A DNA stretch of 64,000 nucleotides from contig WGLW01000012.1 in NCBI GenBank assembly GCA_016125405.1, positions 1-64,000 of the forward strand. Reading direction: 5' to 3'. The DNA comes from Alphaproteobacteria bacterium (GTDB taxonomy: Bacteria > Pseudomonadota > Alphaproteobacteria > Caulobacterales > Hyphomonadaceae). Position 1 is the first letter of the stretch; every line of letters starts with the position of its first letter. The translations under genes were made by a program, and so were the position numbers. Shown here one piece after another: positions 69-11,905 of the stretch. Under the pieces are notes generated by a model. That model was not told the DNA's origin, ran no database searches, and was given only the letters and a program-made list of their open reading frames with translations.

Positions 69-124
69 GGCGCTCCTCCTGCCGCCACGGCAGTTTGTTT
101 ACCTTTGATTAACCGAACGGGCGC

Positions 125-160
125 ATGGTGAAGATGTCTTCCCTTGAAGACACCCCACCA
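125..160. other. Imperfect inverted repeat (nested hairpin)
   Basis: ATGGTG (125-130) is complementary to CACCAT near 155-160, and between them GTCTTC and GAAGAC form an inner stem around a CCTT loop. The nested arms would fold into a long hairpin in RNA. It lies upstream of a stronger terminator-like hairpin. It could be a transcript end or an operator; the sequence does not decide. Confidence 0.3.
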
Positions 161-176
161 TCACCCAAACGCCTTT

Positions 177-207
177 GCGGGAGCCTCTGGCTCCCGCCTC
201 TTCCTTT
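177..207 (+). terminator. Rho-independent terminator-like hairpin
   Basis: GCGGGAGCC (177-185) pairs perfectly with GGCTCCCGC (189-197) around a TCT loop, and a pyrimidine-rich tail (CTCTTCCTTTT) follows. This fits an intrinsic terminator for a gene entering from the left. A second GC arm pair with a T-run (CGGGG, T-run, CCCCG) follows at about 253-271. Confidence 0.55.
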
Positions 208-280
208 TGGCGCTTGCTAGAGAGTGTTTGCGGGCCGAAATCGCCGCTGGCCCGGGGATTTTTTTGCCCCGCGCCAAGCC

Positions 281-309
281 TTGCACCCCCGACAGGCGAA
301 GGCTATACC
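281..309 (+). promoter_or_regulatory. Promoter of tRNA-Asn
   Basis: TTGCAC (281-286) and TATACC (304-309) are separated by exactly 17 bases, and the mature tRNA starts 17 bases after the -10 box. This is a good match to a housekeeping sigma-70 promoter and is placed where a short tRNA leader would start. Confidence 0.6.
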
Positions 310-325
310 CCGCCCTCCACCGAGT

Positions 326-401
326 TCCGCGGTAGCTCAGTTGGTAGAGCAGGCGACTGTTAATCGCCTGGTCGTTGGTTCGAGTCCAACCCGCGGAGCC
401 A
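326..401 (+). tRNA. tRNA-Asn (anticodon GTT)
   Basis: The acceptor arms TCCGCGG (326-332) and CCGCGGA (391-397) pair fully. The D-arm contains AGCTCAGTTGGTAGAGC, the anticodon loop reads CTGTTAA with GTT at 359-361, the T-loop is TTCGAGT, and CCA is encoded at 399-401. Its last 15 bases (387-401) are repeated at 10534-10548, which makes it the insertion target of the mobile element to its right. The tRNA stays intact because the element supplies the 3' end. Confidence 0.97.
387..401. repeat. attL: left attachment site in tRNA-Asn
   Basis: The 15-base sequence CAACCCGCGGAGCCA is identical to 10534-10548. It covers the 3' part of the T-arm, the acceptor strand and CCA of tRNA-Asn, a classic tyrosine-integrase target. 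Identity stops directly on both sides. Confidence 0.85.
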
Positions 402-446
402 GTTTCCCCCGTAACATATTGAATTTATTAGGCATTCATTTGCCGC

Positions 447-465
447 CCATAGCGCTGACCATAGC
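447..465. repeat. Left arm-type repeats (likely integrase arm sites)
   Basis: Two copies of CCATAGC lie 12 bases apart (447-453 and 459-465). The whole 19-base stretch differs by one base from 10396-10414 at the other end of the element. The copies lie about 46 bases inside attL. Direct repeats flanking the core on both sides are what the N-terminal arm-binding domain of a tyrosine integrase recognises; binding is inferred. Confidence 0.6.
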
Positions 466-646
466 ACGGCGCTTCGGATGGGACGGCTTTGTTGCGTCCA
501 CAGGCACGCCAAGCTGACGAACCGCCAGCAATTAACCCTGCTGCCGAACATTGAGACTTGATCGCAGGTACGAACTTCCGACCGAACGTTTTTAGATGGC
601 GAGAAAAAGAGAAAACCGGGAATTGGGGCTGTGTCGTCATCCGGCT

Positions 647-772
647 TTAGCCACCTTAGCCACTTTAGCCACGGCACTCGGCAAAATCTCAATCTCCAAA
701 GAGAAGTCGTTTTGATATTCCTCAGAGTGAGTTTCTGAGGCTCGCCTCGGCTAAAACGGCTAATCCGGCTAA
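647..772. other. Putative replication origin with inverted iteron sets
   Basis: TTAGCC occurs at 647, 656 and 665, an exact 9-base period. Its reverse complement GGCTAA occurs at 749, 758 and 767, again with period 9. The 78 bases between the sets are more AT-rich than the surroundings and contain a hairpin, CCTCAGA (720-726) with TCTGAGG (734-740). The site lies just past the 3' end of the element's primase-type gene. As far as I recall, staphylococcal pathogenicity islands have the same plan: two hexamer iteron sets around an AT-rich core, 3' of rep. Origin function is an inference. Confidence 0.6.
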
Positions 773-784
773 ACAGCATTCGCC

Positions 785-3343
785 CTACTGCGGCGGTCGC
801 ACGCGCCAACGGTGCTTGCGGTCGGGGAGCGGCAACAGCCAGCGGTGATCTTCAAGCAGCCGCGCCGGACGCAATGCGCCCGCCTTGTCACGCACCTGAG
901 CGGCGCGAGGCCCAAATTGGTAGATGGTCTGCAAGTCTATCGTGTCGTGACCTTCGCGCATCCGCTCATGCAGCCAATTCAGCAGGTGCTTGGCTTGTCG
1001 GATTTCCGGGTTCGTATGGGCGGTATCCCACAACCGCAACGCCTCGCTGGCATAGAACGTCGCAAGCTGCATTCCGCATGTGAACGCATGAGCCGGTATG
1101 TTCGGGGTGTTGGGGCCAAGTTCGACAAGTGCGATGACGGCGGCGAGGCGTAATGCGTGTTCGGGAAGCTTGTTCGCGAAGCTCTTGATGTTCGCATATT
1201 CGCCGTTGGGACCAAGTTTGCTTTCAACCTCGTTCGCGAACGCGATCCAAAGCGACTTGGCTTCCGGTGACAGATGCAGCTTGCGCGGCGCAAGTTCGTT
1301 GTCGCCGCCTTCGGCCATCGGCAACGGCGTCTTGAGAATGTTTGTTATGTGATGGTTGTAAGCGGCAAGAGCCGACTTCGCTGAGAAGTTGTGGTTGTCG
1401 TCAAGAAAGCGTGTGCCCGACTTCGTATCAGGTGCGCAAATCAGGAAGCGGCCAAGAAAGCCAATGCCCTTCAAGTCGGCGTCAGACAACATCTTGTCGG
1501 AAATGTCGGGCTGCATCATCAAGTGCGCTGACATGCGGCGGTTGAACAACATGACCGTCTCATTGACACGCACGCGGTCAATGGCAGAGCCGTCCCACAA
1601 TTTGTTAAGCCCGCCCGCCATCGCAAGTCGGTTCTCAGGCTGCATACTGTGACTGTTGAGGAAGCGTGCGCCTTCATCGGAGTACATGCCGAGAGACGGC
1701 GAACCGTATTCAAACAGCTTGAACAAGCCTTCAAACGTCGGCTCGCTGCATGTCAGTGCGGGCTTCGACGGCGGCACGGGTTCGCCCGGCATTGATGTGA
1801 GCGCGCTTTTGATTTCATCGAGTGTCGCGCTCTTGGTTTTCTCTACCTGTTTGCGCGCTATGTCGTGCGCCTGCTTTTCAATGTCGTAGTCAGCCTTCTT
1901 CGTTTTGTATTCGGCGTATCGGTCGTGGACGTGCTGATTGATGGCGGCAAAGGCTATGGCGTCCACAGTGGATTTGCGTTCGCCGCTCTCTGCGATTGTC
2001 AGCAGGAACAAGCTGACCGGGCGTGCGCCGCCGGTCGCTGGTATGACAACGTCAGCGTGCGGCTGTACGACAAGCGCAGCCGCGCCAAGTACCGACTGCG
2101 CAGCGATGGCGGCGGGGCACTTCACTTCTTCCACAATCGCACGGGTTGCGGCGCTGAGGATCGGACCGAGGGCGTCCACAGGGAACGGCGGGGCCGGGGG
2201 AAGCTCACGGCTCAGAGGTTCCGGTGCGAGCGGCTGTGAGAAGACGGCAGGCGCGCCCATGGGCTGCATTCCTTGAGGTTGGGAAAGGGTCGATGGCCAA
2301 GGCCGGTCTTGGCTCTGTACGGGCTCGCCAGAGGCCATTTGCCGCCCGAGAGCGATCACGCTGTCAGGGATGGCCGGTCGCCCGCCCAACTTCGCCGCCA
2401 TGCGGTCAACGTCAGCATCTTTCTCACGCCGGTAGAGTTCGGAGTTGCGAAACATGCGGGCGCACTGTGAACGGCTGCGCGAGTAGAACCGCAACGTTTC
2501 CATCAAGGCGAAGTCAGCTTCGGACTGCGAAGAATACGGTTGGCCCTTGCTGTCAACGACGTGCTGCCATTGGCCCGCCCACAGTTGTTTGAACTTGTCG
2601 CCGTTCTTCGGCGCGTTCGCAGCCCGCGACCAAACCGTGTCGTCGTCTTCCGTTTGCGGTTCGTCGGGCGTGCCGCCTTCGCTGTACATCGCGCGGCTGT
2701 TGCTGAGTTCCGCCCACAGTGCGTTGAGTTCGTCGTTGCGATCAGCGATCCATGCATTGCTGTAAACGTCGCCGGTCATCGTGAAGTAGCGGCCTGACGA
2801 ATAGACTTCGATCTTGTGCGCTCGGCTGTTGATGCCCTTCGGCACGCTGCCTTTTACGATGACGTGCAAGCCCTTCCCGCTAGGGCTTTTCTCTGCGTAT
2901 GAGTTGAACCGTTCGGCCCATTGCTTCTGGTACGCGAAAAGTTCGGCGTCGTCAGTCTGGTCAAAATCGACGCCTGCGTATGGGTCGTTGTCGCTGAACA
3001 CGAAGCCGATCCCGTCCCATTGTTTGCCGGGCGGATTGCGCTTGCTGGCGCGAAACGCGGCGACGCATTCGTCAAACGCGCGCCATGTCTTGGGATCGAT
3101 CGATGAAGCGTGCCGCTTCGTGTGCGGGCTATAAAGTACCTTGGCTAGCTTCTCTTGATTAGGTTTGTGTTCGTACCGCCAAACGACGAAGTTCCGATAA
3201 GCTTTAAGCTCAGCGGGGATGCGGTCGAATTGATCTTGTAAATTGGCAGGGAGCGATATATCTGTGGAGCCCTGACTGTGTTGCCAGACTTCATCTGCGG
3301 CCCCTACTTCGCCAGAGTGGGGGCCGTTCCATTTTTCTACCAT
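785..3343 (-). CDS. PrimPol-like primase/polymerase with DUF3987 NTPase domain
   Basis: This 852-residue protein is the element's likely replication initiator. Residues 40-215 resemble a PrimPol (archaeo-eukaryotic primase) domain of the phage NrS-1 polymerase type. It shows a metal-binding DFD at about 126-128, SGKGLH ending at about 160, and GRYF at about 184-187. From about residue 390 the protein matches DUF3987 (YfjI-like) NTPases, with a Walker-A-like AESGERKST at 451-459 and an acidic SDEG later. The Walker A lacks the usual second glycine spacing. The start overlaps the stop of the upstream HTH gene (ATGGTAG), so the two are translationally coupled. The iteron-bearing region lies directly downstream. 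Confidence 0.85.
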   Translation of the reverse strand: MVEKWNGPHSGEVGAADEVWQHSQGSTDISLPANLQDQFDRIPAELKAYRNFVVWRYEHKPNQEKLAKVLYSPHTKRHASSIDPKTWRAFDECVAAFRASKRNPPGKQWDGIGFVFSDNDPYAGVDFDQTDDAELFAYQKQWAERFNSYAEKSPSGKGLHVIVKGSVPKGINSRAHKIEVYSSGRYFTMTGDVYSNAWIADRNDELNALWAELSNSRAMYSEGGTPDEPQTEDDDTVWSRAANAPKNGDKFKQLWAGQWQHVVDSKGQPYSSQSEADFALMETLRFYSRSRSQCARMFRNSELYRREKDADVDRMAAKLGGRPAIPDSVIALGRQMASGEPVQSQDRPWPSTLSQPQGMQPMGAPAVFSQPLAPEPLSRELPPAPPFPVDALGPILSAATRAIVEEVKCPAAIAAQSVLGAAALVVQPHADVVIPATGGARPVSLFLLTIAESGERKSTVDAIAFAAINQHVHDRYAEYKTKKADYDIEKQAHDIARKQVEKTKSATLDEIKSALTSMPGEPVPPSKPALTCSEPTFEGLFKLFEYGSPSLGMYSDEGARFLNSHSMQPENRLAMAGGLNKLWDGSAIDRVRVNETVMLFNRRMSAHLMMQPDISDKMLSDADLKGIGFLGRFLICAPDTKSGTRFLDDNHNFSAKSALAAYNHHITNILKTPLPMAEGGDNELAPRKLHLSPEAKSLWIAFANEVESKLGPNGEYANIKSFANKLPEHALRLAAVIALVELGPNTPNIPAHAFTCGMQLATFYASEALRLWDTAHTNPEIRQAKHLLNWLHERMREGHDTIDLQTIYQFGPRAAQVRDKAGALRPARLLEDHRWLLPLPDRKHRWRVRPPQ

Positions 3344-3546
3344 GGCACTCCCTGCGGCGGCTCTGGCCTTGCGGCTAGACGCTCATCAATCCATCGCTGC
3401 ACTTCACTCGAAGCGAACAGGAAACGCCCGCCGAATATGGCCGGGCGAAGCTCCCCGCGCGTGACAAGGCGACGGATCGTGTACGGGCTCAGCGATGTGC
3501 GCTGGCATACGTCGCGGACCTTCAAAAGCGTCTCAGCGCTTTCCAT
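3337..3546 (-). CDS. Small AlpA/excisionase-like helix-turn-helix protein
   Basis: The protein has about 69 residues. A single MerR/excisionase-type winged HTH (LLKVRDVCQRTSLSPYTIRR, then a short wing GELRPAIFGGRFLF and ASSEVQRWIDERL) makes up nearly all of it. An ATG at 3546 is preferred because GGAG lies 8 bases upstream; a TTG two codons earlier sits too close to it. Its stop overlaps the start of the PrimPol gene, so it probably acts with it as a replication regulator, an iteron-binding partner or an excision factor. The element has a second AlpA-like protein at 8527-8760. Confidence 0.75.
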   Translation of the reverse strand: MESAETLLKVRDVCQRTSLSPYTIRRLVTRGELRPAIFGGRFLFASSEVQRWIDERLAARPEPPQGVPW

Positions 3547-3948
3547 TTTCAATTCTCCGGGTTGTGCAAGGCTTGGAATAGCTTATACTTGCTATCGCCA
3601 CAATACGAACACAGAAAATGTTTTAAGGCCGAACAACGAGTGTTGATTTAGAGAAGCAACTAGAGCGAGCGCTAATAGGAGCGACACGCGCACGAACCGA
3701 ACTTGATGCGATTGAGCGCAGCAGAGCGAAACGCAACATTGCAGTCGCGCGCATCTATGCGCGTAGCTGTGAGAGCGAGGTTGAACGGCTGCGAGGCTTG
3801 ATTGCAGCGCGAGACAAACCCGACTAGCTCAGCTGCGTGTATGCGATGCCCGCGATCAGCGCAGCCAATCCCAATAAGTAAACGGGGCATTTACCCCTTG
3901 GGCGCATCGTGCTCGCGATTGGACCTAACGTCCTGCATGGGGGACATG
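3547..3948. other. Divergent control region between replication genes and cargo genes
   Basis: About 400 bases separate the leftward HTH/PrimPol pair from the rightward cargo genes. Besides a short reading frame listed separately, it holds two small hairpins: GGGG-CATTTA-CCCC near 3883-3896, and GGAC-CTAAC-GTCC near 3921-3933 just before the secreted-protein start. A TATAAG-like -10 for the HTH gene is visible near 3582-3587 on the minus strand, without a convincing -35. Confidence 0.4.
3627..3827 (+). CDS. Short coding-like frame without a normal start codon
   Basis: This frame is open between a TAA at 3624-3626 and a TAG at 3825-3827. From about 3642 it reads as a charged, helical protein of about 60 residues (VDLEKQLERALIGATRARTE, later SEVERLRGLIAARDKPD), with amphipathic heptad-like spacing. 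No ATG, GTG or TTG lies in frame near the 5' end. It may use a rare start such as ACG at 3636, be a relic of a longer gene, or be chance. The composition looks more protein-like than the opposite strand. Confidence 0.3.
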   Translation, partial: GRTTSVDLEKQLERALIGATRARTELDAIERSRAKRNIAVARIYARSCESEVERLRGLIAARDKPD

Positions 3949-4323
3949 ATGAAATCACTCATTGTAGCTATCCCGCTCCTGCTCATAGCAGCCGGGGCCA
4001 GTGCCCAAACGCCAACTGTGGAGCTAACCTGCGACGGTGAGTTCACCGATTATGTTCGCCCGAATGCCGATGTGAAGGTGACAGGTGTATTCCTACGCAT
4101 ATCGCAAACCTCTATCCACATTGCGGGCGGCCTTCGCGAGTTCAACGGCGACTACCCGATCACGAAAAGCGACGAAGCGACCGTGCAGAGCGACGGACCC
4201 GTATTCATCAGCTCGATCAATCGGTTTAGCGGCGAGTTCGGCATGATCCGCAAGAAAGCCAATAGTGAAAGCCTAGCTTGGCATTTCGCTGCGTTCTGCA
4301 AGAAGCCCAAAGCGCTGTTCTAG
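3949..4323 (+). CDS. Small secreted protein, cargo of the element
   Basis: The product has about 124 residues and begins with a typical Sec signal peptide (MKSLIVAIPLLLIAAGASAQ), with likely cleavage after ASA. Two ATGs occur in tandem at 3946 and 3949; the second has GGGGG five bases upstream. The mature part is about 105 residues with two cysteines (LTCDGEF and AAFCKKP) that could form a disulfide. I do not recognise a family. It is transcribed opposite to the phage-type genes and ends 9 bases before the DUF2971 gene, so the two look like a cargo pair. Confidence 0.7.
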   Translation: MKSLIVAIPLLLIAAGASAQTPTVELTCDGEFTDYVRPNADVKVTGVFLRISQTSIHIAGGLREFNGDYPITKSDEATVQSDGPVFISSINRFSGEFGMIRKKANSESLAWHFAAFCKKPKALF

Positions 4324-4332
4324 ACATCGCCC

Positions 4333-4992
4333 ATGATTGTCTATCACTACCTTAACCGGCAGTACGGCCTTGAAAGTATCTGCTTGCGGCGGCTACGTGC
4401 ATCGGTCGTTGATGAACTGAAAGACCCTTACGAACATCGCGCGTTCGCGCTGAGCCCTCGCGACGATGCCTTGTTTAGTCGCGTCATCAAACAGATGGGC
4501 AAGCCCAATCGCTTCAACAACTGGGTCGGTCAGGGTGTCATCTCATTCTGCAAGAGCTACGACAGCCCCGTCATGTGGAGCCAATACGCGCAAGATCATC
4601 AAGGGCTCTGTTTGGGGTTCAAGCTGATCGACAACGCCGGAGGCTGGCGAGAGGTTGAATATGTACCCGACCGCAAGCCTATGCGCCTGCTTGATGTGGC
4701 CATGCAGGACATGCTGATCTGCGCCACGACAAAGTTTCAGGATTGGAAATACGAACATGAAGTCCGGGCGCTTGTCCCGCTCGATCCTGCTAGGCGGGAA
4801 GGCGGGAACTACTTCTTTGACTACTGCCCACAGTTGAAGCTCACGGCTGTTATTGCGGGCGTCAATTGCACGCTGCCCAAAGCAACCATTGATAGGGCGC
4901 TAGGCGATCTGGCTACCGACGAAGTTGACCGCTTCAAGGTACGCCGAAATCGCGGTGATTTTTCTATGGTTCGTAGCAAGAAACAGTGGTGA
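4333..4992 (+). CDS. DUF2971 domain protein, cargo of the element
   Basis: This 219-residue protein starts MIVYHYLNRQYGLESICLRRLRAS and continues LKDPYEHRAF, the N-terminal pattern of DUF2971. A conserved middle (ISFCKSYDSPVMWSQYAQDHQGLCLGF) matches the family's core, where a substrate-like pocket is expected. The function is not established. DUF2971 genes are common as variable cargo on phages and islands, so a role in phage defence or inter-element competition is possible but inferred. It shares an orientation with the upstream secreted protein and is isolated from the leftward packaging operon. Confidence 0.75.
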   Translation: MIVYHYLNRQYGLESICLRRLRASVVDELKDPYEHRAFALSPRDDALFSRVIKQMGKPNRFNNWVGQGVISFCKSYDSPVMWSQYAQDHQGLCLGFKLIDNAGGWREVEYVPDRKPMRLLDVAMQDMLICATTKFQDWKYEHEVRALVPLDPARREGGNYFFDYCPQLKLTAVIAGVNCTLPKATIDRALGDLATDEVDRFKVRRNRGDFSMVRSKKQW

Positions 4993-5045
4993 GGCGGACT
5001 GCTAAGCCTCCGCACTACGGCGCGTTGCTAGGTTCGGCCATGTCA

Positions 5046-5222
5046 TCATTCGGATGCGGCTTTACCATCTGCTTTGCAATGTCGGCGGGCGCGCGTAGCC
5101 AATCCATCCATTTGTCGCGCGTCAGGATCAAAGTCACCGACAACCTGCCCGCCACCGCCAATGGCTAGGCGAACCCATTTCAGGATGCCATCAATTTCCT
5201 GCACGACGTATTCGTTACACAT
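5046..5222 (-). CDS. Short unknown protein downstream of terL
   Basis: An ATG at 5222 opens a frame of 58 codons ending with TGA at 5046-5048. The product begins MCNEYVVQEIDGILKWVRLA, has a glycine-rich turn and a basic C-terminal half. It lies 58 bases after the terL stop in the same direction, so it may be the last gene of the packaging operon. I see no strong ribosome binding site and no family, hence the modest confidence. Confidence 0.4.
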   Translation of the reverse strand: MCNEYVVQEIDGILKWVRLAIGGGGQVVGDFDPDARQMDGLATRARRHCKADGKAASE

Positions 5223-5280
5223 GCGGCGAGACTAGCACTGTGAGCGCAAGTCTCAATGTTCGTCTGTCGATGCCGCGCTA

Positions 5281-6678
5281 CTACATGCCTGTTAACGGGA
5301 ACGCCTGCATGTGATCGCGCATACGCAGCACGCCGTATCTGCAAGCGTCTGCGGCATGGTCAGGCCCCTTCGTGTCAACGTCCTCTTGTCTGCGTTCGTC
5401 TCGCGCAAGATAGGGCGTCGTGGACCAAAAATACTCTGCTGCGCGCGTGACGTACAAGCCGGGCACATCTGGCTTGCCCGCGTCTGCAAGTAGGCGGCGC
5501 ATGGTCTGCCAACCGGATATGCGGTCAGCTTTGCGTGCGGGGGCAAAGCTGACGCCGCAACGACGGTATTCATCTGCAAGCGAGCCGGTCGCATAACCAA
5601 TGTTCGCGAACACGGCATCATCGGCAACGCCGCGCGGTGCGATCTTCCATCGCGCACACATTGTTCGGATTTCTTCGGCAAGGATTGTGACGGGCCAATT
5701 GAGGCCAGCGTTAAGGCGTCCCCTTTGGTTCGTCGCAAGTTCATCCACAATGATGATGCTATCGCGCGGATAAAACTTGCCGTCCGGCCCCTCAGCGCCC
5801 GGCGATTGCAGCATGACGTAAGTTACGCTTGGCGCGCTGAAACCTGCATCATGCGCGAGCCAATGATCCCAGCGCCAACCGTGATTGTCGGGGATCGTTT
5901 GCCACTTCGCCGGATCAATCGCGTTGCGCGCTTCGTCAATCACAGAGCTAAAGAAAGCGCCTCGGGCAATTGTCCACGATCCGTCAATCCAAGCCTTGAG
6001 CAGTTCGGGGTCATGCGGTGCGGATGATTCAAGCTGTGCGCGGTACTGCGCTTGGTCAATGAAGGTGTTTTCAACGAAGGTCGATGGTGCATGGACAAAG
6101 GTTCGCTTGGATCGTTCCTCAAGAAAAGGCGTCCACGGTGCGGCCTTGAATACGTAGCGCTGTGCAATCCAGTGATGGCCGACGCCACCGGGGTTCGCGC
6201 TGATTACCATGCGTAGCGGTATGCCCTTCTGCGACCTCAGATTACTTCTCAGAAGGTCAAGGAGGTCGGGACTGTCGTATTGCCCCGCTTCATCGCAAAG
6301 TATCATGGACTGCGAGCGTCCTTGGTACTTGGCCCAATCGCTATGCGTCTCAAGTTGCCCGAGTTCGAGTGTCCCGCCGCCCGGCAGTCTCCAGATATGT
6401 TCGCTGCTGTTAAAGCGGGCGGCTGTTCCGTAAATTGTCGCGAACAACTCACGCGTCAAAAGTTCAAAGTCCCGCAACCCGGCGTAAGTCTTGCGCAAGT
6501 ACAGCATGTGAGAGCGCGGGCCGTATTGTTCGGCATGGCGCAAGGCGAGAAGTGCGAGGCAATAGCTTTTGCCGCCGCCACGACCGCCGCCAAGGAACAC
6601 GTCAAGTTCTTCAGGTATCGTCAGAACGCGGTGCTGGAAGGGGGACAGGCTGAGGGATTGCGTTTCCATGTTGGTCAA
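5281..6678 (-). CDS. terL: Phage terminase large subunit (TerL)
   Basis: At 465 residues this is full length for a terminase motor. Walker A is GGGRGGGKS at about 30-38 and Walker B is MILCDEA at about 125-131. The C-terminal RNase H-like nuclease shows an acidic residue in HDAGFSAP, a second in GVADDAVF, and the typical final DHAADACRYG near 441-450. All motifs appear intact. The start overlaps the end of terS by about 68 bases in another frame. TerL would drive DNA into a prohead and cut the concatemer, yet no prohead genes are present, so it must work on a helper's procapsid if the element is a satellite. Confidence 0.93.
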   Translation of the reverse strand: MTNMETQSLSLSPFQHRVLTIPEELDVFLGGGRGGGKSYCLALLALRHAEQYGPRSHMLYLRKTYAGLRDFELLTRELFATIYGTAARFNSSEHIWRLPGGGTLELGQLETHSDWAKYQGRSQSMILCDEAGQYDSPDLLDLLRSNLRSQKGIPLRMVISANPGGVGHHWIAQRYVFKAAPWTPFLEERSKRTFVHAPSTFVENTFIDQAQYRAQLESSAPHDPELLKAWIDGSWTIARGAFFSSVIDEARNAIDPAKWQTIPDNHGWRWDHWLAHDAGFSAPSVTYVMLQSPGAEGPDGKFYPRDSIIIVDELATNQRGRLNAGLNWPVTILAEEIRTMCARWKIAPRGVADDAVFANIGYATGSLADEYRRCGVSFAPARKADRISGWQTMRRLLADAGKPDVPGLYVTRAAEYFWSTTPYLARDERRQEDVDTKGPDHAADACRYGVLRMRDHMQAFPLTGM

Positions 6679-7048
6679 TCACAGGCAAGGCAGACATTGG
6701 CAATGCGCCGGGAAGTTGGAATGTGATGTTGACGCGGCTTGCGGCGGCGTCCTGCTGTTCGCCTTCGCGCCAGCCAAACCTTGCTTTCAAGAGAAAGAGC
6801 GCGGCAATCGTGTCGCCGTTCATGGCTTTCCGGTAGAGCACGTTTGTAAGCGCAAACTCTTGGCGACCGCGCCCGAGTTCGTATTGCTCTTTAAGGTCCG
6901 GGTATTCATCCAACCAGCGGCGAAACGTGTCGGCTGACGTGCCGAGCAGGTTCGCTACACCAAGCTTGTTGTGGCCTTCTTCCGCAAGTTCGCGGATACG
7001 CAACGCGGCGTCAGGTGGCGGTTGTTTGAGTGGACGGCCCGGAGTCAT
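6611..7048 (-). CDS. terS: Terminase small subunit-like protein (TerS)
   Basis: The 145-residue protein begins with a proline-rich lead and an HTH of the small-terminase kind (ALRIRELAEEGHNKLGVANL then TSADTFRRWLDEYPDLKEQY). A helical segment follows (ALTNVLYRKAMNGDTIAALF, ARFGWREGEQQ), a pattern found in many phage DNA-binding small subunits. The tail is proline-rich and probably flexible. It lies directly upstream of terL and overlaps it, the normal terS-terL order. It would choose which DNA is packaged, so its pac/cos site should lie on the element. Confidence 0.8.
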   Translation of the reverse strand: MTPGRPLKQPPPDAALRIRELAEEGHNKLGVANLLGTSADTFRRWLDEYPDLKEQYELGRGRQEFALTNVLYRKAMNGDTIAALFLLKARFGWREGEQQDAAASRVNITFQLPGALPMSALPVIDQHGNAIPQPVPLPAPRSDDT

Positions 7049-7057
7049 GTTAGGCGC

Positions 7058-7486
7058 TCACTTACTGCGAAGCTTCGTGTACACGACACGGTCCATAGCC
7101 TGTTGCTCGCTCAATCCTTCGCGCATGGCTTTCGAGATAGTCGCTTGTGCGATCATGCGCGCGAGCTTCAGAAACTCTTGCGCTGCAATGGCCGTCTGTT
7201 CGTCAATCGGCGGCATGTCGCTATACTCGATGCCGTATAGCGTGCTCAGATTATTAAGAGCGGCTTCGCGGATACGCTTGGCGGCAAGTCGATCCGTCGC
7301 TGAATAGTGGTTGAACAGCTTGACGGCGTCGGGATCGTCTTCGCAATTCACAGCGTCCTGCTTGGAGCTAGCCGCGAAGCTCATAAGCAGCGTAGAGAGA
7401 ATGAGTTCGTAAACGACCGCGTCCAAGTCGGTGTTGAAGCGGGTTCTTGTGAGAAGCGAAAGTTTCGGGGGTGTCATGTCATCCAT
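7058..7486 (-). CDS. Unknown element protein upstream of terS (142 aa)
   Basis: The protein is mostly helical and acidic, with two stretches that could pack as helices (LDAVVYELILSTLLMSFAAS and TAIAAQEFLKLARMIAQATI). No signal peptide, metal motif or known domain is apparent. Its 5' end overlaps the previous gene by 13 bases, and terS begins 10 bases after its stop. This close packing ties it to the packaging module. ATGs at 7486 and 7477 are both possible starts. Confidence 0.6.
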   Translation of the reverse strand: MDDMTPPKLSLLTRTRFNTDLDAVVYELILSTLLMSFAASSKQDAVNCEDDPDAVKLFNHYSATDRLAAKRIREAALNNLSTLYGIEYSDMPPIDEQTAIAAQEFLKLARMIAQATISKAMREGLSEQQAMDRVVYTKLRSK

Positions 7487-7791
7487 GGCCTTCTGCCAAA
7501 TCGAATGTTGCAGATCGGCTTCGGCGCAACGTGCGGGCTGTACAGCGTCACGGCTTCGTTGTCGGGATGACCGCGCAAGAGCATGTCGCGTCTGACCCGC
7601 GCCGTAAGATCATCGACGCTTTCGCCATCAAGACGGCGCACGATTTGGTCGTTGATAAGCAGCCCGACCGTAAAGTCAGAACCGCCATTGATGCCTTGCA
7701 CAAGCAGACGAGGTACGCCCGGCGGATCGCGCGCGACGCCAACCGTTCCGAGGTATTGCCAATCGGCCCGCGCTAGCTGTTCGGGTGTCAT
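7474..7791 (-). CDS. Unknown element protein (105 aa)
   Basis: The product is a small mixed alpha/beta protein (GVPRLLVQGINGGSDFTVGL, then LINDQIVRRLDGESVDDLT) with a basic C-terminus. The ATG at 7791 overlaps the stop of the upstream 244-residue gene (ATGA), and its own end overlaps the following gene. I do not recognise a family. The overlaps show it belongs to the int-to-terL operon. Confidence 0.6.
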   Translation of the reverse strand: MTPEQLARADWQYLGTVGVARDPPGVPRLLVQGINGGSDFTVGLLINDQIVRRLDGESVDDLTARVRRDMLLRGHPDNEAVTLYSPHVAPKPICNIRFGRRPWMT

Positions 7792-8522
7792 GCTGCATCC
7801 GGCCTCTTTGCGAGTGCTGCAAGAAAGTCGCGTTCGGAAGCGGTGAATTTCGCTTTGCGATTGCGGAAGGCTGCGGCGCGGACGGGGTCAACAAACGCGT
7901 TCTTTACACGCGCAGGAAGACCCATCGCCGTACGCGCCGTTTCCATTATCTTGGCTTTGCTTCCGCGCTGTTGAGCGATGTGCGGCGCATGAATGCTGAC
8001 GAACATGTCGCGGGCGCGTTGAACGTCTTCCGGCGAAACGCCAGAGCGATATTCGTCCATGCGCGCGACAGTTCCGATATACATGCCGCCTTTGGCCGGG
8101 TTCTTCTGCCAACGGTTCATCAGGTCTTGAAGCTTCTCAGTCAGCGGCTTGGCGCAAAACGCGTCTTCAATGCCTTTGGTATCGCCAGACGTTCGGTCAA
8201 AGCCGCAGGCGATGTTCTCTTGGCGAGTCAGGTCAAGCAGCCATTCCGAATTGATCGCATCAAGTTCCTTGTTGTAGGTGTCTGCCAGCGTCACGGACTT
8301 ATCGACCTTATCGACGGCGTTCATGTAGTTAGCGTCGCCCGAAACAGACGGATCATAGTTCTCAGCGCTGTTGTGGGCGGCGCGTAGAACGTCGCGGACG
8401 GCGTACACGCGTGCTTGCGCCTTTGCGGCATATGGCGAATTGATGCTGCCATCAAATTCGCTGATCCGCGCGCCCAAGTCGTCACCCGCTTGCGCAAACA
8501 TGCCGATATTAAAATCTGTCAT
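7788..8522 (-). CDS. Unknown element protein (244 aa)
   Basis: This is the largest unassigned product of the element. It is hydrophilic, strongly helical by composition and contains two cysteines (ENIACGF, EDAFCAKP). The C-terminal part is basic (LPARVKNAFVDPVRAAAFRN). There is no signal peptide or membrane segment. It lies between the AlpA-like regulator and the packaging genes. By position alone it could be a capsid-redirecting, scaffold-like or packaging accessory protein; nothing in the sequence proves this. Confidence 0.6.
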   Translation of the reverse strand: MTDFNIGMFAQAGDDLGARISEFDGSINSPYAAKAQARVYAVRDVLRAAHNSAENYDPSVSGDANYMNAVDKVDKSVTLADTYNKELDAINSEWLLDLTRQENIACGFDRTSGDTKGIEDAFCAKPLTEKLQDLMNRWQKNPAKGGMYIGTVARMDEYRSGVSPEDVQRARDMFVSIHAPHIAQQRGSKAKIMETARTAMGLPARVKNAFVDPVRAAAFRNRKAKFTASERDFLAALAKRPDAA

Positions 8523-8526
8523 GGTG

Positions 8527-8760
8527 TCACCAATTCGATTGTTGCGGTTGGTTGTTCGTGAGTTCGGCTGCGTTGCGAACGGTCGGGCGTGTTTCGATCC
8601 ATTCGCGGATTGCGGTGTATCGCCAGCCCACAGCGTTGGCGCTCAGCCGGATTGGCAAGGGGAACGCCCGCTCGCTCATCAGCTTGTAAATCTGGCTGCA
8701 AGAAATGCCGGTGACTTCCTCAACCTCACGGCGGCGAAGTACACGCTCTGGCACGGACAT
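8527..8760 (-). CDS. alpA: AlpA-family transcriptional regulator
   Basis: The AlpA pattern is clear: VLRRREVEEVTGISCSQIYK, LMSERAFPLPIRLS, then VGWRYTAIREWIETRP. The preferred start is the ATG at 8760 (MSVPERVL), because a start 15 codons further up adds only a basic lead unlike the family. AlpA proteins of P4 and Gram-negative PICIs switch on int and the satellite's lytic programme. It lies in the int operon, four bases ahead of the 244-residue gene, so it may control that operon. Confidence 0.85.
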   Translation of the reverse strand: MSVPERVLRRREVEEVTGISCSQIYKLMSERAFPLPIRLSANAVGWRYTAIREWIETRPTVRNAAELTNNQPQQSNW

Positions 8761-8885
8761 ACCCGCCTGACCCTTCCTTGTCGTGCGACGCGGTACGCGA
8801 TGCAACGGGAGGGAAACTAGTCAGCTAGCGGATCGGAAAAATAGAACTGGGTTTGGTCAAACTCTAACGCGCGGAACACGAGTTT

Positions 8886-9125
8886 CTATTTGCGGCGCTT
8901 CAAGAACCAATGTTCGACCCTGCGCCGCATGTTGACTGCGTCGTCATCATCGCCGGGCACGAGTTGCAAAAGCGCCTTGCGACGGCTCAGCTTGCGGCCT
9001 TCCGACTGCGCAGCATCAAGTTCCGCCTCAAGCGTTCGGACAATCGCCAAATCGTCGGGATTAATGCGCGGCCCGGTGACAATCGGCGGCAAAACACCCC
9101 CGGTTAATATCGGGAACTTGCTCAT
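8886..9125 (-). CDS. Small charged protein coupled to the integrase (79 aa)
   Basis: Its ATG overlaps the integrase TGA (ATGA), so it is translated right after int. The N-terminal third is proline/glycine-rich, then a helical charged segment (DDLAIVRTLEAELDAAQSEG) and a basic end (RRRVEHWFLKRRK). No family is recognised. An excisionase-type role is conceivable from position, but the sequence lacks a clear HTH. Confidence 0.55.
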   Translation of the reverse strand: MSKFPILTGGVLPPIVTGPRINPDDLAIVRTLEAELDAAQSEGRKLSRRKALLQLVPGDDDDAVNMRRRVEHWFLKRRK

Positions 9126-10384
9126 GCGCCCACACGTTGCGCGAACTCAATCACATTGTCGGCCTGTGGTCCGGCCACAAGGTAGGCCGACCAAGCAGCG
9201 AACAGCTTGGATTGTTCGTCTTCAAGTTTGTATCGCTCGTAGGCTGCGTCTTCCTTGCTGGCCTTTTTCTTGTGGTCGATTGCAAGGCGGCTCACGTCAT
9301 CGGCAAAACCGGCATGACGGGCAAAAGCGCGGAAGCTTGTTCGGTAGCCGTGCGGTACGGCGGCTATCTCAAGATCGCGCATCAACTTGGACAAGGTGTT
9401 GTCCGACAGCGCCTTGCCTGTGATTGAAGGGAACACCAATCCCTTGCGTTCGGGATTGAGTTTGGCGGCTTCCTCAAGGATGGCGAGCATTTGCGGCGTG
9501 AGCTTGATGCGGTGCGGAGCCTTGTCCTTCATCCGCTTGGCTTTCAGCTTCTCGACCGGAATTGTCCAATAGCCGTTCTTGACTTCCTCCCACAGCATTT
9601 CACGCACGTTTGCCGAACGTGTCGCCGTGTGGGCTAGAAATTCATGGGCTAGCTTGGTCGCCGCCTCAGCGTCGCTCGCCTTGATCTTATCCAGCGCACC
9701 CGCAACTTGACCGAACAGCAACGCCGGATGGTGCGCAACCTGACGGTTTTGCGGTCCTAGAAGCGCATCAATGAAACGTGCCGGATCGTCCGAACGCCAG
9801 CGCTTCGCAATGGCGTACTTCATCACGTCGCCAAGCGCGCCGCGCAACTTGGTCGCCGTCTCGAACTTGTCGTGCCAGACCGGCTTAAGCGCCGCTTCAA
9901 TGTCGTTTGCATTGACCCGGTCTATGCGGACGCCGCCGAACACAGGGAACGCGTAATCCTGCAAACGGGCCAGCCACAGCTTTGACCCTTTCTCCGAACT
10001 CCACCGGCCAGCGGCAATGTCGCGCGCTTGAAGGGCAAGTGCGGTTTCCTCGAACGTGGGCAGCGCCCTATTGCGGTCGTTGGCATCTTTGGGATTGACG
10101 CCTGCCGCTAACTGTTCGTTCGCCGCCTTGGCCTTGTCGCGCGCAACCTTGAGCGACGTGGCCGGATAGCCGCCAAGACCTAATTCGACCGTATTGGAAT
10201 TGCGGCCCGGCGCTGGCCTGCCCCATCGGTACATGAAGACCCATTGCAGGTTGAGCCCCCGCCCGTCGTGGCGTTGCCCGTCAGCACGCGCACGCAGGTA
10301 GAGGCGGTTCCCATCGGCATAGACGCCGGGCGCTCTCAACGCGGCGATCCCACGAGGCGTAAGGCGATTGACGAGGCGTCCCAT
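9122..10384 (-). CDS. int: P4-type tyrosine recombinase / integrase
   Basis: The protein has about 420 residues. The N-terminal arm-DNA-binding domain is of the DUF4102 kind (LTPRGIAALRAPGVYADGN to LGLGGYPATSLKVARDKAKA). The catalytic domain shows Arg in ATRSANVREMLW (about 256), HGYRTSFRAFA (His 345, Arg 348), His 371 and the nucleophile Tyr 382 in AAYERYKL. I prefer the ATG at 10384 (MGRLVNRL); a longer frame to 10468 exists. With the shorter start the CCATAGC repeats fall in the leader, where integrase could repress itself. Its gene sits at the attR end, away from the tRNA. Confidence 0.92.
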   Translation of the reverse strand: MGRLVNRLTPRGIAALRAPGVYADGNRLYLRARADGQRHDGRGLNLQWVFMYRWGRPAPGRNSNTVELGLGGYPATSLKVARDKAKAANEQLAAGVNPKDANDRNRALPTFEETALALQARDIAAGRWSSEKGSKLWLARLQDYAFPVFGGVRIDRVNANDIEAALKPVWHDKFETATKLRGALGDVMKYAIAKRWRSDDPARFIDALLGPQNRQVAHHPALLFGQVAGALDKIKASDAEAATKLAHEFLAHTATRSANVREMLWEEVKNGYWTIPVEKLKAKRMKDKAPHRIKLTPQMLAILEEAAKLNPERKGLVFPSITGKALSDNTLSKLMRDLEIAAVPHGYRTSFRAFARHAGFADDVSRLAIDHKKKASKEDAAYERYKLEDEQSKLFAAWSAYLVAGPQADNVIEFAQRVGA

Positions 10385-10414
10385 AGCGAACCCGACCATA
10401 GCGCTGCCCATAGC
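10381..10414. repeat. Right arm-type repeats at the int start
   Basis: Three copies of CCATAGC occur at 10381-10387, 10396-10402 and 10408-10414. The last two, with the spacer between them, match the left-end repeat at 447-465 in 18 of 19 bases and in the same orientation. They lie 120-153 bases inside attR and overlap the integrase start. In the excised circle they would flank the core together with the left set. Confidence 0.6.
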
Positions 10415-10533
10415 AGCAAGCAGGGAACGTACCGCAATCCGATAGAACGCGGAAGAACGAAACGTCAAAAATTCTCTTGGTTAACAGCGCTGTAGAAGAA
10501 GCGCGGGGAACGGCACGGAATAGGCTCAGGCTG

Positions 10534-10548
10534 CAACCCGCGGAGCCA
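10534..10548. repeat. attR: right attachment site
   Basis: This is a perfect 15-base copy of the tRNA-Asn 3' end (387-401), without the rest of the tRNA. It marks the right boundary of the element. Host genes start about 130 bases further on. Confidence 0.85.
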
Positions 10549-10678
10549 TCGGTTTTCATCCCGGTTTTTGTAATCTTTGGCGTCGACCAAGCGACGCACC
10601 GGCGTTGGGCTTTCCCCTGCCCGCTACCTTGCCGTTAGACTTTCGGAGAGCTGTTCCAAGCGACTCCTCGTGAGCCCT

Positions 10679-11905
10679 TCAGAAGCGAATGGGCAGGTCT
10701 CCGGAAATCAGTCGCTCCGCGGCGCATCGTGCCCCTTCGATAGTGATGTCTGCGGAAAGAGATCGAGCACGCCCAACCACAACCGGCTGAAGCGCACGCT
10801 GGATTGCTGTGGCGAGGGAGAGCGCTGTCGGCTGCTCAGGCGGATGCGCGGCGCCGACGCCCAAGCGCTCTATCTGTTGGGCCCAATGGTGCTGGTCATA
10901 GACCTGGGGCGCGATCACTTGTGGCGCGCCGCAAAGCGCGGCGGCCGTGGTCGTGCCCGCGCCACCATGATGGACAACGGCGGCGACACGCCGGAAAAGC
11001 GCCAGCTGATTGACCTCACCCGCCAAAAAGCAATCGGACTGGTCGTCAACAAGCGACAGGTCCGCCCATCCCCGTGACACGATTGCGCGGCGCCCGAGCG
11101 CGCGCGAAGCCCCGATCATCGCCGCTGCAACATTCTCCGGCGCACGTATGCTGCCAAAGCCGAAATAGACCGGCGGTTCCCCGGCATCGAGAAACGCCTC
11201 GAGTTCGGGCGACAGATTGTTCTGATCGGGGAGAATCCATGCGCCCGTCTGGAAGACTGCCTCGTCCTCACTGTCGGGCCACGGCGCAAGCGTCTTGTCT
11301 GCAGCCAGCCAGGGCTGAGAAGTGAAAACGTGAGCGCGCACATCCTCGACAGGCGTAAGTCCGAGCGCAGCGCGATTTGCATTCAGGGCCGGGCCAAACA
11401 ATGCGCTGAAGCGTTCCGCGTCGCGCGTCCAGAGAGAGGGGAAGTCCGTCGCATTTGTCGCCGGCGTGTCGCCGCGCATGGCGAGGACAGGCGGCGCATG
11501 GTGGGACGACGGCAACACGGTAGGACAGTAGGCGGCGAAGACGTAAGGCACGCCCATTTTCTCCGCCACTGACGGCGCTGCTATCTGAAGGGCCGTGGCG
11601 CCGACAATGACATCGCAACCTTCGGCCGCTTCAGTGATCGTGCGGAACTGGATCGAGACCGTTTCATCCATCATTTGGCGCCGCTGCTCGGGCGTCGGCA
11701 TCGCAACGGGCGCCGGCGGTTTGGCCGTCCAGCGGAGTTCAGGTCCGATGGGCCTCACCTCCATGCCGAGGCCCTTGATCCAGTCCTGAAAATCGGGCGG
11801 CACGCACAGCCGAACATCGACCCCCAGCAATCGAAGCTGGAACGCCAGCGCGACCAGTGGCTGAACGTCCCCGCGCGATCCGATCGTCGACAAAAGCACC
11901 CGCAT
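10679..11905 (-). CDS. GT1/GT28-type glycosyltransferase
   Basis: This 408-residue protein has the two-Rossmann GT-B layout. It starts MRVLLSTIGSRGDVQPLVAL, the signature of UDP-sugar sterol/macrolide-type transferases. The C-terminal donor site contains VVHHGGAGTTTAAALCGAPQVIAPQVYDQHHWA, where the HHGG and the D-Q pair bind the nucleotide sugar (here given as a pattern name, GT1 PSPG-like). The acceptor could be a lipid or secondary metabolite. It is transcribed toward attR as a single gene, and nothing nearby names the substrate. Confidence 0.85.
   Translation of the reverse strand: MRVLLSTIGSRGDVQPLVALAFQLRLLGVDVRLCVPPDFQDWIKGLGMEVRPIGPELRWTAKPPAPVAMPTPEQRRQMMDETVSIQFRTITEAAEGCDVIVGATALQIAAPSVAEKMGVPYVFAAYCPTVLPSSHHAPPVLAMRGDTPATNATDFPSLWTRDAERFSALFGPALNANRAALGLTPVEDVRAHVFTSQPWLAADKTLAPWPDSEDEAVFQTGAWILPDQNNLSPELEAFLDAGEPPVYFGFGSIRAPENVAAAMIGASRALGRRAIVSRGWADLSLVDDQSDCFLAGEVNQLALFRRVAAVVHHGGAGTTTAAALCGAPQVIAPQVYDQHHWAQQIERLGVGAAHPPEQPTALSLATAIQRALQPVVVGRARSLSADITIEGARCAAERLISGDLPIRF

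Follow-up and report, generated by a model that had tools for sequence, protein, structure and literature searches.

What kind of mobile element carries both subunits of a phage terminase and no recognizable gene for the particle that such a motor would fill? The question is raised by a 64,000-nucleotide stretch of a hyphomonadacean genome (contig WGLW01000012.1 of assembly GCA_016125405.1, positions 1 to 64,000; hereafter the window), in which positions 402-10548 represent an element of about 10 kb, measuring 10,147 bp start to start and reaching from the 3' end of a tRNA-Asn gene to a second copy of a repeat. We propose that it is probably an integrated satellite resembling phage-inducible chromosomal islands (PICIs) and part of a broad family with its own terminase, the rest of the particle being borrowed or partly supplied by the element. 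This family is apparently undescribed, and its recurring core comprises an integrase, an AlpA-type regulator, a primase/helicase and the small (TerS) and large (TerL) terminase subunits.

Boundaries and gene content of the element

The features of the element and its integration site are listed below, where att denotes the attachment repeat, p244, p105 and p142 are proteins named after their lengths, and p250 is a protein family described further below.

326-401, plus strand: tRNA-Asn(gtt), the integration site, with the att copy as its last 15 bases, 387-401 (ARAGORN and exact repeat)
443-466, no strand, with a partner at 10392-10415: 24-bp repeat of 92% identity, inside the two att ends
785-3343, minus strand: primase/DUF3987 replication protein (phrog_3022, 3.4e-78; PF13148, 3.4e-84)
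3337-3552, minus strand: second regulator of AlpA type (HTH_17), immediately upstream of the primase gene (PF12728, 1.1e-10)
3949-4323, plus strand: cargo protein of 124 aa with a signal-peptide-like start (by eye), without a match in the family or defense scans
4333-4992, plus strand: cargo DUF2971 protein (PADLOC PDC-S31, a candidate defense family, 2.8e-20)
5281-6678, minus strand: TerL (PF03237, 1.8e-13; phrog_2, 3.2e-27)
6611-7048, minus strand: TerS (phrog_309, 3.5e-11)
7058-7486, minus strand: p142, without a family match
7474-7791, minus strand: p105, with relatives in L014 (54%) and L015 (66%)
7788-8522, minus strand: p244, a remote p250-family member (hhalign), with a predicted all-helical model
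8527-8805, minus strand: AlpA/excisionase-type regulator (phrog_2790, 3.5e-12; phrog_66, 9e-10)
8886-9125, minus strand: protein of 79 aa overlapping the integrase frame, without a PHROGs match
9122-10468, minus strand: tyrosine integrase with arm-binding, core-binding and catalytic domains (PF13356, PF22022, PF00589)
10534-10548, plus strand: second att copy, CAACCCGCGGAGCCA, the outer element end and an exact match to the last 15 tRNA bases

An earlier reading of the letters of this DNA (the sequence-only reading) had described a 15-bp tRNA-Asn repeat bounding 10.1 kb, which holds true, the copies at 387-401 and 10534-10548 being exact and the first representing the 3' end of the tRNA gene itself. 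With up to two mismatches allowed, two matches occurred in 2 of 100 shuffles. Chance repeats of 13-15 bp outside tRNA genes were also seen in the relatives L031, L034 and L132 (L and G numbers denote loci and genomes, respectively); therefore, the 15-bp length alone is weak evidence, and the placement at the tRNA 3' end is what matters. The 24-bp repeat pair within these ends is a possible set of integrase arm sites. As a small integrated element with att repeats, an integrase and a replication gene, and without a complete virion set, the locus shares the general features of phage satellites.

On the minus strand, genes are transcribed in the order integrase, 79-aa protein, AlpA-type regulator, p244, p105, p142, TerS, TerL, second AlpA-type regulator and primase-DUF3987, with the two plus-strand genes located between TerL and the second regulator. 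Pfam and PHROGs matches confirmed the integrase, AlpA, PrimPol/DUF3987 and intact TerS and TerL genes recognized in the sequence-only reading, with the refinement that two AlpA-type genes are present. The lack of portal, protease, capsid, connector and tail genes within the window element was likewise upheld by the absence of matches to these families, TerS and TerL being its sole matches of head or tail type. Furthermore, the 244-, 142- and 105-aa proteins matched no family at E ≤ 0.1, a Pfam scan of 10 of the 12 main window genes found no HNH domain, and no gene of at least 250 aa was picked in the element beyond the integrase, TerL and primase. The motif residues of TerL that we take to belong to its ATPase and nuclease are invariant in five aligned TerLs, including that of the window.

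Recurrence among relatives and distance from phages

When 249 genomes from the order were searched with TerL (E ≤ 1e-20), 12 had a match, including the element's own, and the nearest TerLs are those of G185 (78% identity), G070 (67%), G061 (52%) and G205 (43%). With a profile built from five TerLs, 88 relatives were retrieved from 84,980 species genomes and 98 from IMG/VR, and the best 80 of each were kept. The 57 loci analyzed comprise the window, L013-L017, L028-L050 minus L049 (which is G185 again) and L107-L135, with more distant TerL loci used as outgroups only or left aside; many are truncated contigs, and the near-copies L108/L109, L116/L117, L120/L121 and L130/L131 were retained. TerLs of the compared relatives are 41-78% identical to that of the window, and host titles include Pseudomonadota, Acidobacteria (among them the isolate Edaphobacter lichenicola) and two Balneolaceae/Bacteroidetes metagenome-assembled genomes, for which misbinning is possible. 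Strains of Hyphomonas polymorpha, Halomonas halocynthiae and Lysobacter silvestris are among the culturable carriers.

TerS was found in 48 of the 57 loci, a tyrosine integrase in 32, a serine-recombinase cluster in 4 and primase clusters in 34, while integrase and primase co-occur in 27 and an integrase of more than 300 aa is present in 31. In 18 loci, integrase and TerL lie between the copies of a direct repeat of 14-69 bp, which overlaps an ARAGORN tRNA in 16 of these loci and a tRNA-like sequence (by eye) in L048 and L113. The bounded elements span 7,555-14,399 bp with a median of 10,127 bp, and 11 of the 18 fall within 9.5-11.4 kb; the eight capsid-bearing ones measure 9,513-11,302 bp and the ten others cover the full range. 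The remaining loci of the 31 with integrase and TerL show terminal repeats (L108 and L135), the non-tRNA repeats of 13-15 bp mentioned above (L031, L034 and L132) or no repeat (8 loci). The ends of two IMG/VR contigs, of 9,868 and 7,866 bp, are repeated over 71 bp (one mismatch) and 123 bp, respectively, as expected of circular or concatemeric DNA. These counts support both the satellite interpretation of the sequence-only reading and its expectation of recurrence in tRNA genes at about 10 kb. The proposed recurring unit of 244-, 142- and 105-residue proteins did not materialize: p105 was seen in 3 loci, no p142 relatives were detected in the relatives examined, and TerS-TerL with integrase and primase forms the recurring core.

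TerS-TerL combined with an integrase is also a phage arrangement, the TerL is homologous to phage terminases, and single capsid, neck, adaptor and tail genes are scattered among the relatives (see below). The element could thus represent a decayed prophage that lost its head, tail and lysis genes and kept integrase, primase and terminase by chance. However, the window TerL matched 601 of 50,697 phage records, all below 60% identity and at best 32.6% among the best 20 of the 601, and the TerL of a Vreelandella relative matched 624, again all below 60% and at best 30.9% among the best 8 of the 624. Among 72,556 plasmids, five records matched at E ≤ 1e-20, with identities of at most 31.3%. A quick tree placed 47 of 48 TerLs of the set, together with L136 and L137 from IMG/VR, on one side, apart from the phage TerLs included; the L017 TerL falls outside, on a long branch flagged by the program. 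Relative to H. polymorpha (L014), nonsynonymous (dN) and synonymous (dS) divergence are 0.195 and 1.77 for TerL (dN/dS ~0.11) and 0.204 and 1.35 for TerS (~0.15), suggesting that both subunits are constrained; the corresponding values are 0.45 and 1.50 for p105, and 0.63 and 2.60 for p244. Full-length prophages among the relatives, which would have spoken for decay, were looked for in phage records and genomes and were not found. Because related cores are present in 57 loci, of which 18 have boundaries that give comparable sizes, because the terminase looks constrained and because the phage matches listed include no close TerL, we regard a prophage remnant as quite unlikely.

In five annotated phages that were opened, the portal gene lies downstream of TerL, directly in four and after three small genes in one, unlike in the window, where no portal gene follows TerL. 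The portal model PF04860, run on 27 plus 22 genomes or records that contain 47 of the 57 loci including all 22 capsid-bearing ones, gave matches in 11 of the 49, none of them inside any element as judged by contig or position. Beyond integrase, TerL, capsid and primase, no gene of at least 290 aa was picked in L028, L032, L033, L035, L044, L108, L113 and L134 (the 811-aa gene of L134 is a primase), and in a ninth capsid-bearing element, L039, two genes of 331 and 341 aa look by eye as if they serve restriction and methylation.

The sole PF04860 portal of the host genome (G000) is located on contig C54 in a cluster at ~17.7-33.4 kb that resembles, by eye, a gene transfer agent (GTA), and the element might accordingly ride in host GTA heads instead of phage heads. 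GTA heads hold about 4-5 kb, less than the element, and of the 24 close loci L027-L050 at least 15 have titles that place them outside Alphaproteobacteria, which makes this route highly improbable.

L110 (IMG/VR 2844644197_000004) is integrated in tRNA-Leu, and a prophage that looks P2-like by eye is located some 5 kb away in the same record; the two are a possible helper pair. Its 55.7-kb record was also considered as a full-prophage relative and rejected, the prophage being located beyond the tRNA-Leu boundary.

Virion genes, the p250 family and an amber-codon branch

Genes of the relatives were called with a simple open reading frame (ORF) picker, which left unchosen overlapping ORFs of at least 300 aa in 8 of 20 elements. 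We scanned 139 of 157 non-core ORFs and two of L015 in two packs, the 18 omitted being doubtful antisense ORFs, primase pieces and edge pieces; the best 25 of 74 matched families were considered per pack, and weak single matches may be hidden. L013 encodes a capsid protein (phrog_247, 5.8e-94) preceded by a gene of the scaffold family phrog_206 (1.1e-6). Of 27 genomes or records searched for this capsid family, 13 contain it, and the window's genome, G185, G070, G205 and G061 gave no match; its nearest phage relatives among the matches listed are 41-43% identical (phages of Xanthomonas, Stenotrophomonas and Pseudoxanthomonas, and others). Overall, a major capsid protein is encoded in 22 of the 57 loci, 15 of which also have a scaffold gene. 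Further virion genes include a tail-completion/neck protein (L107, L110, L114, L115 and L130), a head-tail adaptor in the capsid-bearing L044 (8019-8528) and L129 (1677-2123), a tail-assembly protein in the capsid-bearing L033 (4574-5050) and L118 (1991-2608) and also in L115, and a tape-measure protein of phrog_28 or phrog_24 (L111:6458-8374, L112:7299-8648 and L119:5019-9137). The lone adaptor and tail-assembly genes of capsid-bearing loci imply virion modules wider than scaffold plus capsid, and tape-measure genes in terminase-related loci suggest that some members may alter tails rather than heads. The lack of capsid genes emphasized in the sequence-only reading is a trait of the window element that the family does not share uniformly.

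In L133 and L134, which form a separate tree branch, scaffold and capsid genes follow TerL and do not precede TerS, possibly reflecting independent capture of the head module. Genes upstream of TerS or TerL in L110 (8951-9577, 0.0049), L044 (8746-9603, 0.00044) and L121 (7570-8475, 0.042) weakly match phrog_13702.

Many capsid-less relatives encode p250, a helical protein roughly 250 aa long with a divergent sequence. A profile built from 13 proteins recovered three members that had not been used for it and lie outside its clusters (L112, 9.8e-17; L045, 3e-12; L132, 6.7e-10) and no reversed sequence. Compared by hhalign with the p244 pair, it gave a probability of 82.7 and an E value of 9.4e-6 over 198 columns, E being per single comparison in runs that comprised an all-versus-all among 24 groups followed by eight comparisons; controls without an expected relation (c5, c4, c23, p142 and L119_257) had E values of 0.07-0.63. 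Another protein of ~250 aa, c16, did not join the family (probability 0.9). The 244-aa protein singled out in the sequence-only reading is therefore best placed as a remote member of this common family, apart from any fixed 244/142/105 set. By sequence, relatives of p244 occur in one genome among 104 others of the host family, in none of 384 other class genomes drawn and, as far as confirmed, in no viral contig; searching the phage collection with three p250 members gave nothing at E ≤ 0.01, and the best p250 match to solved structures had an E value of 0.095.

With the window and L014 counted on their hhalign match, 19 of the 57 loci encode p250, 22 a capsid protein, 16 neither and none both. 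Among the 38 loci with enough flank the respective numbers are 14, 13, 11 and 0 (Fisher p 0.00085, kinship ignored). On the tree, capsid presence changes 4 times and p250 presence 8 times, and L110 (p250) is sister to L118 (capsid); these changes imply that the slot has been altered more than once. Neither gene is present in L016, L040, L042, L043 and L048 (four of them titled Sphingomonadales), four of which encode a ~250-aa protein after TerL without detectable kinship to p250. L130, bounded at 13.7 kb in tRNA-Arg, encodes p250, the tail-completion protein, a ResIII/DEAD-type helicase and a Holliday-junction resolvase, and has no capsid match.

The three genes directly upstream of TerS in the window occupy the place of scaffold and capsid genes in many relatives, and p244, p105 and p142 could on this ground form an unrecognized shell. 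However, p244 is predicted to be all-helical (mean predicted local distance difference test, pLDDT, 73; alignment of 2), unlike HK97-type shells, whereas p105 modelled poorly (pLDDT 48). As no further gene of at least 250 aa was picked, the element also has no portal of usual size, and a disguised capsid-former appears improbable.

Seven IMG/VR contigs (L120, L121, L122, L124, L125, L127 and L128) contain TerL frames that have two or three in-frame TAG codons and are free of TAA and TGA over the matched part, and the six of these that were compared share 80-100% identical DNA. At one of the shared TAG columns, 38 of 48 relatives have Q; at the other, 35 have K or R and just 2 have Q. A stretch of 1030 codons in L127 (3-3095) is open with nine TAGs and matches tape-measure phrog_24 over residues 4-1022 (6.2e-77), a phrog_24 frame in L128 (2-2242) holds five TAGs (2.4e-111), and the tail-assembly frame of L124 holds a TAG as well. 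When the bases of each tape-measure frame were shuffled 2000 times, TAA or TGA appeared in every shuffle, which for coding DNA is a weak control. In L121, neither the primase gene nor the p250 gene has an internal TAG; a third gene terminates in TAG and can be read either way. Neither a suppressor tRNA nor an integrase was seen in these contigs, which are fragments, so their assignment to the satellites follows TerL kinship. The late genes of this branch look as though they follow a code in which TAG is reassigned, and they may be readable only in the presence of a recoded helper; PMC9523058, which, like the sources cited below, is represented here by extracts, deals with the reassignment of TAG to glutamine in phages.

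Five of the 10 cargo proteins scanned matched defense families, namely DUF2971/PDC-S31, PDC-S49, a restriction enzyme in each of L013 and L016, and NsnA in L048. The L013 element (84-11067), located beside tRNA-Met, has a serine recombinase and a restriction-type gene, together with genes that were judged by eye to be of DUF3800 and methyltransferase type.

A packaging model and known satellite systems

A helper phage would trigger excision of the element from the tRNA gene, which, judging from the gene families, the integrase would carry out with AlpA, and the primase-helicase would replicate the element. Its own TerS would recognize element DNA, and its own TerL would dock on a helper-supplied procapsid and portal and pump the DNA in, with helper parts completing the particle. 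Self-packaging into a shell and portal that the element does not encode is the most likely outcome because both terminase subunits are present and constrained. p250 (here p244) might fit the shell or portal of the helper to the foreign motor, a role hypothesized because it adjoins TerS-TerL and is absent where a capsid gene is present. Induction, helper dependence, the docking partner of the motor and the role of p250 are all parts of the model that we infer.

Alternatively, TerS and TerL could act as weapons that compete with helper packaging while the helper terminase packages the element. Known satellites do interfere with helper packaging (PMC10690885), and constraint on TerL fits either role. 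Nevertheless, the presumed ATPase and nuclease residues are retained, which a decoy would not need, and competition is hard to square with members that have their own capsid protein; hence, we consider this use of the terminase unlikely.

A wider reading, which falls somewhat short of probable, is that of a satellite family across several phyla built on its own motor with a plug-in virion slot. This slot would be filled by p250, which goes with use of the helper's head, by scaffold and capsid genes lacking a portal, so that the element's own shell sits on the portal of the helper, or by just one gene of the neck, adaptor, tail-assembly or tape-measure type. In the amber branch, motor and tail genes would be made only under a code-switching helper, amounting to helper dependence by genetic code.

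Several observations weigh against the proposed satellite and its packaging model. The element is known here from sequence alone, no helper phage was identified (the only PF04860 match in the host being that of the GTA-like cluster), and the right flank, sought in 14 other genomes of the genus, was not found except for one 38-base match, leaving no empty site to compare. PF04860 is a single portal model, and the single virion genes scattered in relatives are such as decaying prophages could have. In the compared pairs dS exceeds 1 and is saturated for TerL versus L015. p244 is linked to p250 by profile-profile comparison only, the p250 profile listing the L014 relative at E 0.0043 and not the window p244; the p244 pair alone failed against c11 and c16 and reached a probability of 68 with c21, and the p244 model had no match in PDB or BFVD at E ≤ 0.001. 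Finally, the 16 loci with neither p250 nor capsid lie outside the proposed swap, and on the tree the mutual exclusion of the two genes reduces to four independent pairs, 3.7 on average as expected and never opposite (median p 0.125).

Terminases are generally thought to work with a matching portal. A portal-less lineage that keeps its own motor would represent natural motors docking on foreign portals, making motor-portal compatibility directly testable, and capsid-bearing, portal-less members would likewise represent shells built round a borrowed portal. Furthermore, the p250/capsid swap offers a handle on an uncharacterized protein family.

No satellite family with TerS and TerL and without a portal was found in the literature searched, which under-covers subscription journals and the original papers on capsid-forming PICIs (cf-PICIs), virion-encapsidated integrative mobile elements (VEIMEs) and tycheposons. 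The novelty of the family rests on comparison with published descriptions of PICIs, cf-PICIs, phage-inducible chromosomal minimalist islands (PICMIs), MulchRoom/MiniFlayer and P4/AH14b; VEIMEs and tycheposons, which are satellite families of marine bacteria (PMC11389934), lie outside it and are its main gap.

Gram-negative PICIs resemble the element in their integrase, AlpA, primase, optional TerS and size of about a third of a phage genome (PMC6092414). The window element has the integrase, AlpA, primase module and ~10 kb of a PICI (mean size from PMC10803314), and departs from a no-TerL rule that is our own reading of the definition: Gram-negative PICIs are described in the extracts with TerS only, whereas the window has an intact TerL, TerS-TerL is a recurring core and the hosts differ. 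Lone capsid homologues without a head set are already known from EcCICFT073 (capsid protein plus head decoration) and PmCI172 (PMC6092414). The PICMIs of Vibrionaceae share an integrase, AlpA, which drives their excision, and a DUF3987 or DUF5906 primase (PMC10803314). However, the PICMI prototype occupies a fis site with six genes, lacks capsid-remodelling genes and is presented in the extracts without mention of a terminase (PMC10803314), in contrast to the tRNA sites and full terminase found here. P4 and the Pseudomonas satellite AH14b also have an integrase, an AlpA-like regulator and a primase (PMC4936722), but P4 relies on the P2 terminase for its packaging (PMC10690885) and AH14b has, in the portion of the source at hand, no identifiable terminase (PMC4936722).

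Own small and large terminase subunits are shared with the Streptomyces satellites MulchRoom and MiniFlayer, which, unlike the window element, encode portal, capsid, scaffold and head-tail adapter and, as far as the extracts describe them, no obvious replicase (PMC10690885). The cf-PICIs also combine TerS and TerL, at an average size of 14 kb (PMC10803314), but encode capsid protein, protease, portal, connectors and HNH (PMC10690885), none of which was matched in the window element, and even the capsid-bearing relatives identified here differ from them in showing no PF04860 portal.

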